The translations under genes and the position numbers were made by a program. A DNA stretch of 64,000 bases from Kordia periserrulae (lineage in GTDB: Bacteria > Bacteroidota > Bacteroidia > Flavobacteriales > Flavobacteriaceae). Location of the stretch: positions 1-64,000 of the forward strand of contig NZ_QBKT01000003.1 in the NCBI RefSeq assembly GCF_003054265.1, given 5' to 3'. Shown here piece after piece: positions 13,495 to 60,792 of this stretch (position 1 is the stretch's first letter; each line of letters starts with the position of its first letter). A model generated the notes under the pieces. That model ran no database searches. It was not told where the DNA came from and saw only the letters and a list, made by a program, of their open reading frames with translations.

Positions 13495-13623
13495 TTATCG
13501 CGGACAATGACCAAATGAAACCCAGCACCATGCAGTTTTTCCACCTTTAATGGTTTTTTGAGTCGACATATCCACAATCAACTTTTTGTTTAATTTCAAT
13601 AATGTACGTTTTTGTTTTTTCAT
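13495..13623 (-). CDS. Lanthipeptide-like precursor peptide 1
   Basis: 42-residue peptide. The leader MKKQKRTLLKLNKKLIVDM runs to a Lys-Gly-Gly site and has the L-x-L-x-KK-x-I pattern of Bacteroidota class I lanthipeptide-type precursors. The core after GG is KTAWCWVSFGHCPR with two Cys, one Thr and one Ser. An ATG two codons upstream (13629) is also possible; I chose the inner one because the four other family members in this window start MKK. Its core shares CWVxxxxxC with the precursor just upstream at 13746. No modification enzyme is adjacent. Confidence 0.7.
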   Translation of the reverse strand: MKKQKRTLLKLNKKLIVDMSTQKTIKGGKTAWCWVSFGHCPR

Positions 13624-13745: not shown

Positions 13746-13904
13746 TTAACAGCTCATATACGATCCGCATGGATAAGTTTCATCTACCCAGCAGCAAATT
13801 GTACAGTTTGTGTGTCTTGTTTCTCCTCCTTTAACTTTGGTGTATTCCAAAGAAGAAATTGCCTTTTTATTCAATGATAATTTTTGTAAGTTTCTTTTTT
13901 TCAT
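13746..13904 (-). CDS. Lanthipeptide-like precursor peptide 2
   Basis: 52-residue peptide from the ATG at 13904; an upstream in-frame start at 13964 would add 20 hydrophobic residues that do not fit the family. Leader MKKRNLQKLSLNKKAISSL, then VKGG, then a core with five Cys and several Thr/Ser (TNCTICCWVDETYPCGS). It lies 122 nt upstream of precursor 1 on the same strand, and the CWV...(H/P)C arrangement is shared. A near-consensus -7 box (TTACTTTG) lies near 13933-13940. The product is probably a Cys-rich RiPP; bridging chemistry is unknown. Confidence 0.72.
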   Translation of the reverse strand: MKKRNLQKLSLNKKAISSLEYTKVKGGETRHTNCTICCWVDETYPCGSYMSC

Positions 13905-52579: not shown

Positions 52580-52795
52580 TTAGTCAATTGCACAATATCC
52601 AGGTTCGGTATGGCAATTTGCGACAGTAAGGGGACAAAAATACACTTCCGTTTCGCAGCGTGTCGTTTTACAAATACTCTCATACGTATAGGTAACACAA
52701 GTAGTTGTTTTAACGCCTCCAGTAATTTGTGCGTTTGCAAGCGTTGAAATTCGTTCTTTTTTAAGCTGTAGTAATTTTGCATTTCTTTTTTTCAT
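52580..52795 (-). CDS. Lanthipeptide-like precursor peptide 3
   Basis: 71 residues. Leader MKKRNAKLLQLKKERISTLANAQITGG followed by a Thr-rich core with six Cys, ending CPLTVANCHTEPGYCAID. The leader is nearly the same as that of precursor 4 (MKKRNxxxLxxKKERISTL). The end CxTEPx(Y/F)C is shared. It lies 67 nt downstream of precursor 4 on the same strand. No modifying enzyme is adjacent. Confidence 0.78.
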   Translation of the reverse strand: MKKRNAKLLQLKKERISTLANAQITGGVKTTTCVTYTYESICKTTRCETEVYFCPLTVANCHTEPGYCAID

Positions 52796-52862
52796 CTGAA
52801 TAACTTTTTTATTGAATTACTATGTGATAATTTTTATCGAATAACTTTTGCGTAAAGCATAA

Positions 52863-53090
52863 TTATCCTTCTTGCCCAAACAATCCACAAAATCTAGGTT
52901 CGGTAACACACGCCAAATAAGTCACCGTGCAATCCACAAATGGATCGGAATGACCATTTAGCGTTTTACACTCAGTTTTGTGCGAATAGACACATTTTTT
53001 ACTATCCAGTCCGCCTTTAATTTTTGAGCTTGTCAAAGTGGAAATTCTTTCCTTTTTAAATGGTAACGAATTGAAATTTCTTTTCTTCAT
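52863..53090 (-). CDS. Lanthipeptide-like precursor peptide 4
   Basis: 75 residues from the MKK start at 53090; an ATA-like extension to 53099 is less likely. Leader MKKRNFNSLPFKKERISTLTSSKIKGG, then a core with five Cys, ending CTVTYLACVTEPRFCGLFGQEG. First of a tandem pair with precursor 3. Spacing of the last three Cys (C-x6/7-C-x6-C) is the same in both. Confidence 0.78.
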   Translation of the reverse strand: MKKRNFNSLPFKKERISTLTSSKIKGGLDSKKCVYSHKTECKTLNGHSDPFVDCTVTYLACVTEPRFCGLFGQEG

Positions 53091-53154: not shown

Positions 53155-53215
53155 GTAACCTTTGGTTTATAAAATAGCGGTTGGTAGCACCTACGTTTTA
53201 TAAACTAGCGGTAAA
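53155..53215. repeat. Short direct repeat TTTATAAA(A/C)TAGCGGT
   Basis: Two copies of about 16 bp (near 53168 and 53196) upstream of the precursor pair; may be a regulator site or old duplication. Confidence 0.5.
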
Positions 53216-60558: not shown

Positions 60559-60792
60559 ATGAAGAAAAAAGATTTCAACCAAAAGCTCCAATTACACAAA
60601 AGTGTCATTTCAAATTTAGACGCAAGCATGCTTCACGGCGGAACGGATATTACAATCATTCCTATTCAAACCATTATTGAAACGCTTCAAACTAGACATG
60701 ATGCTTGTACAATCATTGCAACGTGCAAGTGTAGTATGCAATGTCCTACGACGACTAGAGTTCCAGAGGATTGCAATACTGATAAATGTTAA
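60559..60792 (+). CDS. Lanthipeptide-like precursor peptide 5
   Basis: 77 residues. Leader MKKKDFNQKLQLHKSVISNL, then LHGG, then a Thr/Ile-rich core with six Cys (CTIIATCKCSMQC, EDCNTDKC). It is the only member on the forward strand and stands alone between the Fur and RelA/SpoT genes. Leader pattern the same as members 1-4; the core is different. Confidence 0.75.
   Translation: MKKKDFNQKLQLHKSVISNLDASMLHGGTDITIIPIQTIIETLQTRHDACTIIATCKCSMQCPTTTRVPEDCNTDKC

Follow-up and report, generated by a model that had tools for sequence, protein, structure and literature searches.

A 64,000-nucleotide stretch of the genome of the flavobacterium Kordia periserrulae (contig NZ_QBKT01000003.1, positions 1 to 64,000; "the window" refers to this whole stretch) carries on its minus strand two adjacent small genes for peptide precursors. 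Precursor 1 (P0001, 71 aa) occupies 52580-52795, with its leader at 52715-52795, its core at 52583-52714 and its stop codon at 52580-52582. Precursor 2 (P0002, 75 aa) occupies 52863-53090, with its leader at 53010-53090, its core at 52866-53009 and its stop codon at 52863-52865; an alternative ATG lies three codons further upstream. A first-pass annotation had described precursors of 71 and 75 residues 67 nt apart, and these are the open reading frames found here. It had also called the leaders almost identical. They are indeed alike, with MKKRN, KKERISTL and GG the same in both, but with an agreement of 63% over 27 residues this wording was too strong.

The two cores end in the same way. In each, residues 54-68 follow the pattern C54-x6-C61-x-T-E-P-x-(Y/F)-C68, and this tail is conserved in aligned relatives; it reads CPLTVANCHTEPGYC in precursor 1 (52592-52636, minus strand) and CTVTYLACVTEPRFC in precursor 2 (52887-52931, minus strand). 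The spacing of six or seven residues proposed earlier between the first two cysteines is six in both. The cores as wholes align with a local score of 63, where the 99th percentile of shuffled cores is 59.

The leader of the pair is, by its sequence, of the Bacteroidetes class I lanthipeptide type, with the motif LxLxKx5L followed by GG. P0001 fits this motif fully (L9-x-L11-x-K13-x5-L19, then GG26-27), while in P0002 F11 replaces L11. The radical SAM leader model TIGR04149 does not match the leader of either at E≤0.05, and a Pfam scan of the precursors gave nothing useful. A bactofencin identity for P0002 was set aside, since its 14.8 bits fall far under the cut-off of 35.

These leaders do not stand alone. 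With P0001 as the query, its own genome gives 65 matches at E≤1, mostly over the leader. A profile built from 67 such leaders, to which P0001 (E 3.0e-10) and P0002 (E 6.2e-11) themselves contributed, gives at least 149 matches at E≤5, of which 137 lie at E≤0.001 and 12 above. This search scored 150 of 249 candidates, and the true number of precursors may therefore be higher. Intact reading frames with an ATG start and a GG or GA site account for 143 of the 149, giving at least 143 precursors; that catalogue excludes three matches without GG or GA, three that start inside the leader, and at least one further precursor (C7:167115). When matches within 1.5 kb are merged, the 149 fall into 102 places, of which 71 hold a single match. 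The cores are varied: only 37 of the 143 have a core partner scoring better than the 99th percentile of shuffled cores. At E≤0.05, a threshold looser than its curated cut-off, the class I lanthipeptide leader model NF038153 recognises 50 of the 67. Across 11 Kordia genomes, in each of which 150 candidates were scored, the counts at E≤0.001 are lower bounds that run from at least 102 to at least 150 per genome, with four genomes at 150 or more. The pair in the window is a conserved but modest member of something larger, and it is the whole set that is the surprise.

The same genome encodes one LanB, as does each of the 11 Kordia genomes. Near it lie a LanC, a separate elimination protein (Lant_dehydr_C), an HlyD protein, a C39-ABC exporter, two TPR/AraC-type regulators and three small precursors. 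NisB is among the solved lantibiotic dehydratases to which the LanB aligns. The LanC aligns to solved LanC-like proteins and keeps their WCYG and CHG motifs, which we take to be the zinc ligands.

The reading that we consider quite probable is that the pair are orphan class I (LanB/LanC) lanthipeptide precursors of the Bacteroidetes GG-leader type, modified in trans in an arrangement like that of the prochlorosins. The leader, the GG site, the Thr/Cys tail and the single LanB set elsewhere in the genome are read directly; from these we infer modification in trans, ring positions, export and function. Here, LanB and the separately encoded elimination protein would dehydrate Ser and Thr residues of the core using glutamyl-tRNA. 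LanC would then add Cys to the dehydrated residues, plausibly joining T57 to C61 and T63 to C68 in the pair. The exporter beside LanB would cut at GG and export the peptide. A single enzyme set would in this way serve, in trans, at least 143 precursors at about 100 places. As for what the peptides do, secreted interference or signalling would be a guess.

The link between leader and LanB can be examined across the family. In a sample of 149 genomes, one per genus, leaders at E≤0.001 were found in 5 and LanB in 15. All 5 fall within the 15, and none of the 134 genomes without LanB has a leader (Fisher p 5.3e-6; 5.2e-5 when the Kordia periserrulae genome, with at least 56 leaders in this search, is excluded). 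Each of the four other genera has a leader close to LanB, at 1.6-3.6 kb. In two of these genomes (G028, G158) the sole leader is found 1.6 and 2.5 kb away from that match; a third (G148) has two leaders nearby, at 1.7 and 3.6 kb, and another three on different contigs; in a fourth (G087) one is 1.7 kb away and fourteen are elsewhere. These layouts suggest a path from clustered to dispersed precursors.

The placing of Ser and Thr around Cys was examined in the 143 cores by shuffling the non-Cys residues within each core 2000 times. Ser and Thr lie 2-6 residues before a Cys 756 times, against 643 expected (standard deviation 16), while after Cys they number 523 against 532. The excess is found at offsets -3 to -6 (z 2.1, 2.3, 4.9 and 3.4), and offset +1 is low. 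In 139 of the 141 cores that bear Cys, Ser and Thr before the last Cys are at least as many as the cysteines, a weak test that has no null.

These numbers bear on the alternative that survives best, in which the precursors are GG-leader peptides that leave the cell through C39 transporters and owe their stability to disulfides, and are not lanthipeptides at all. The cores are rich in cysteine (11.8%), and elsewhere in the genome a C39-domain protein with parts that look by eye like VKOR and thioredoxin stands next to a GG peptide, albeit one with another leader. Yet odd and even cysteine counts are divided 69:72 among the 141 cores, and the even numbers expected of disulfide peptides are not seen. 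The Ser/Thr bias lies on the N-terminal side of Cys, and among the 149 family genomes the leader is confined to those with LanB. The N-side bias and the odd counts speak, indirectly, for Cys joined to Ser or Thr and against intramolecular disulfides, and we regard the disulfide explanation as unlikely. The first-pass annotation had left the matter at "disulfides or thioether rings"; leader type, LanB co-occurrence, Ser/Thr bias and odd cysteine counts would favour the second half of that phrase and not the first.

A second alternative accepts modification but assigns it to another maturase, a radical SAM enzyme or one of the other LanC loci, with the LanB association reflecting shared leader ancestry only. 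The genome offers candidates. Three further LanC-domain genes are present, and one precursor (C1:237283, the weakest leader match, E 3.8) has an isolated LanC and a transglutaminase-like gene as neighbours; two of the 67 leaders match the radical SAM model TIGR04149. Against these two stand the 50 matched by the class I model, and a leader lies near LanB in each of the four other genera, which makes this alternative quite improbable.

The neighbourhood of the pair allows it to be followed through the genus. On one side lie genes that we take, from their translations, to be parA, parB, dapB, lepB, WbqC and a small membrane protein; on the other are presumably an endonuclease/exonuclease-like gene, two rhomboid-like genes and mutL. 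The flanking genes from lepB/WbqC to mutL are syntenic in all 11 Kordia genomes, and the gap between them holds full-length precursors of the pair type in 8 (G000 and G004-G010). In the other three, the reading of synteny covered 6 kb each. G003 has at this place only broken pieces of window-type precursors (L179 1616-2621), with an intact relative elsewhere (L098); in G001 and G002, no precursor of the pair type was found at the syntenic place within those 6 kb. A profile of P0001 and P0002 finds whole-length relatives in other Kordia genomes, mostly syntenic, the best at E 3.6e-42 in G006. With G006 set aside, identity to the window is mostly 70-97% for the flanking proteins (down to 48 and 58% for the two rhomboid-like ones) and 35-54% for the peptides.

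Eleven syntenic peptides were aligned, the non-syntenic L098 and a tail-less 57-aa neighbour in G004 (L173) being left out; their rows are related, and hence are not 11 independent observations. C54, T63 and C68 are invariant among them, and each of C41, T43, T57 and C61 is present in at least 90%. Position 64 has E in 7 of the 11, and position 65 has P in 8. L098 keeps CTVT and the Thr; it has one extra residue before its last Cys and no TEP. The first-pass annotation had staked its case on the tail recurring in some other genome, and it does. The structural constraint that it proposed is borne out in the cysteines and threonines of the tail, which are kept while the rest diverges; its choice of TEP as a conserved element is not, since E and P vary. 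A pattern of invariant C54, T63 and C68 with almost invariant T57 and C61 fits thioether pairs of Thr and Cys. The tail has T-x3-C and then T-x4-C, which is what two methyllanthionine rings would need, if the rings are assigned in this way.

Selection was assessed over a larger part of the set by comparison with G006 (its C1 and 19 kb of C2), where 25 precursors could be mapped by their flanks and 21 had a syntenic homologue. The pooled ratio of nonsynonymous to synonymous substitution rates (dN/dS) over the 21 pairs is 0.18 for leaders and 0.13 for cores. Cysteine is kept at 105 of 107 core positions, Ser/Thr (as either) at 163 of 178, and other residues at 566 of 666. P0002 follows the pooled pattern. 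The cores are thus under purifying selection where this can be tested, and the peptides are probably separate functional products, not a random library.

Part of the set appears to share an upstream signal. Of 142 upstream regions, 33 have the palindrome TACGG-N5-CCGTA, with up to two mismatches, between -100 and -50, and in 31 of these it lies at -65 to -75. About 1 such region is expected from a shuffled null, and two control stretches contain 0 and 2; since the palindrome was discovered in the very regions in which it was then counted, these statistics are post hoc. Three of four G006 orthologues have it at an unchanged distance. Over the whole genome it occurs at 61 places, and a reversed control at 14. 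Among 50 of these places, 17 stand 65-88 bp upstream of a catalogued precursor, and the remaining 33 do not; among 15 loci examined, some precede other genes. Two other short GG peptides are preceded by it, and so, at 73-74 bp, are two related 480-aa proteins with signal-peptide-like starts (L225, L226). The regulator that reads it may thus control more than precursors. A -7/-33 promoter pattern was tried on the same 142 regions and dropped, its excess being small (12 against 5.6, standard deviation 2.2) and its -7 part alone showing none (24 against 28). An AACCAAA word was also seen near -18 in the upstream regions.

A third alternative is that many of the dispersed frames descend from one mobile leader cassette, with random sequence behind the leader, and are now silent or decaying. 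Their large number might suggest it, as might their varied cores (37 of 143 with a detectable partner), the broken pieces or absence at the window place in three genomes and the missing G006 homologues of 4 of the 25 mapped precursors. Against it, 143 of the 149 frames are intact and have GG or GA, the syntenic cores have a dN/dS of 0.13 with 98% of Cys kept, and 33 of 142 upstream regions carry a positioned palindrome. The selection test already disfavours this idea, which is the least probable of all.

Several observations nevertheless weigh against class I lanthipeptides modified in trans. The pair is on contig C3 and LanB on contig C7, so that the pair and LanB are unclustered, and no modification enzyme was seen among the open reading frames surrounding the pair. 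Neither P0001 (15.4 bits) nor P0002 (14.4) reaches the 22-bit cut-off of NF038153; the leader of P0001 alone scores 18.6, still below it. At E≤0.05, other leader models also claim some of the 67 leaders (L1b five, TIGR04149 two). Among the three additional LanC-domain genes is a LanM, and some precursors may belong to these loci. Ten of the 15 LanB genomes in the family sample have no leader match; these may use other leaders. In the Ser/Thr test, offset -2 has no effect, -1 is depleted and +2 is enriched (172 against 121). The core of P0001 is relaxed, with 7.5 of 32.3 synonymous and 15.5 of 99.7 nonsynonymous sites changed. Finally, the palindrome is absent upstream of the window pair and was not found near the LanB-cluster starts that were tested.

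Related systems have been described before. Walker et al. (2020; PMC7268733) described Bacteroidetes class I LanAs with LxLxKx5L leaders, GG sites and C39 proteases. The Kordia system resembles these lanthipeptides (NF038153, lant_leader_L1a) in leader motif, GG, LanB, LanC, and the C39 exporter in the enzyme cluster. That survey took precursors close to the enzymes, and noted that its mining missed enzyme-distant precursors in the prochlorosin case; in Kordia, by contrast, the precursors lie at about 100 places and there is one LanB. The chemistry of Bacteroidota LanB and LanC has been shown experimentally for Chryseobacterium and Runella lanthipeptides made in E. coli (PMC9993889). Those came from one refactored cluster each, with no dispersed precursors mentioned in the text available, whereas the Kordia precursors are dispersed. 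For Kordia itself, a lanthipeptide type is listed among the nine clusters of the K. antarctica genome (PMC7477175), and a survey of the whole family describes the metabolites of Kordia as little known (PMC10734526).

The arrangement, and only the arrangement, is that of the prochlorosins and synechococsins, in which a single enzyme goes with numerous scattered precursors that have similar leaders, GG sites and varied cores. ProcM has 29 precursors and SyncM 79, and SyncM has been called the most flexible reported (PMC12328550, PMC10783134, PMC9872173). These are class II LanM systems of cyanobacteria with Nif11-family leaders; Kordia would use class I LanB/LanC and NF038153-type leaders. Kordia also differs in having at least 102-150 leaders per genome, and cores that are conserved between two species where this was tested. 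No report of a dispersed class I precursor set was found in the open literature, as judged from titles and the starts of abstracts, with subscription papers (for example, the Pedobacter lusitanus study) outside that scope. The Kordia set would exceed any one-enzyme set that we found described. A wider proposal, which we favour with less assurance than the reading of the pair, is that Kordia has a one-enzyme class I system in which some 140 or more dispersed precursors per genome, their cores individually conserved and part of them co-regulated through a palindrome about 70 bp before the start, are all ringed by a single LanB/LanC pair, and that this system is larger than any in the literature searched.

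The question of how a single enzyme rings many unlike peptides has been studied on ProcM and SyncM, both of class II. With its larger number of substrates, tRNA-dependent LanB and CHG-type LanC, a class I system would bring a second chemistry to that question, and its natural leader-guided substrates would be at hand for LanB engineering. Mining around enzyme genes would miss most precursors in Kordia. Cores that are conserved, rather than fast-changing, would in turn give a handle on the purpose of such peptide sets.

The window holds three further members of the leader family. A 77-aa precursor at 60559-60792 (plus strand) passes the NF038153 cut-off (26.7 against 22 bits) and has a syntenic homologue in G006. 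A 52-aa precursor at 13746-13904 and a weak 42-aa member at 13495-13623 (E 0.067), both on the minus strand, were found with the leader profile. The cores of the pair are unrelated to all three (local scores 17-30), as the first-pass annotation had held for the other precursors of the window. The precursor at 13746-13904 has a core closely similar (score 127) to that of another at C3:523819-523977 (L054), about 510 kb away on the same contig. Upstream of precursor 2, at 53166-53211, lies an inverted repeat, GTTTATAAAA...TTTTATAAAC, with the loop TAGCGGTTGGTAGCACCTACG; searches with three word patterns gave no further copy among the loci examined.

Other peptide loci of the genome came into view as well. 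The LanM gene (L044 6717-9858, 773.7 bits) adjoins a peptide with a different leader (C2:127716). A LanC-like gene with HopA1-domain and APH-domain genes (L043 8856-12250) resembles a class V lanthipeptide enzyme set, although the LxmK model gives it 66.6 bits, far under the cut-off of 315. The C39-domain protein with VKOR- and thioredoxin-like parts is 519 aa long and belongs to the locus L049 373-2362, in which the short GG peptide that it adjoins (2129-2290) has an exact copy of the palindrome 72 bp before its ATG. At L047 6529-10267, near a gene resembling those of nonribosomal peptide synthetases, three genes stand in a row, one for a small GG peptide containing WGES repeats, one for a CxxxCxxC protein resembling a radical SAM enzyme by eye, and one for a C39-ABC exporter.
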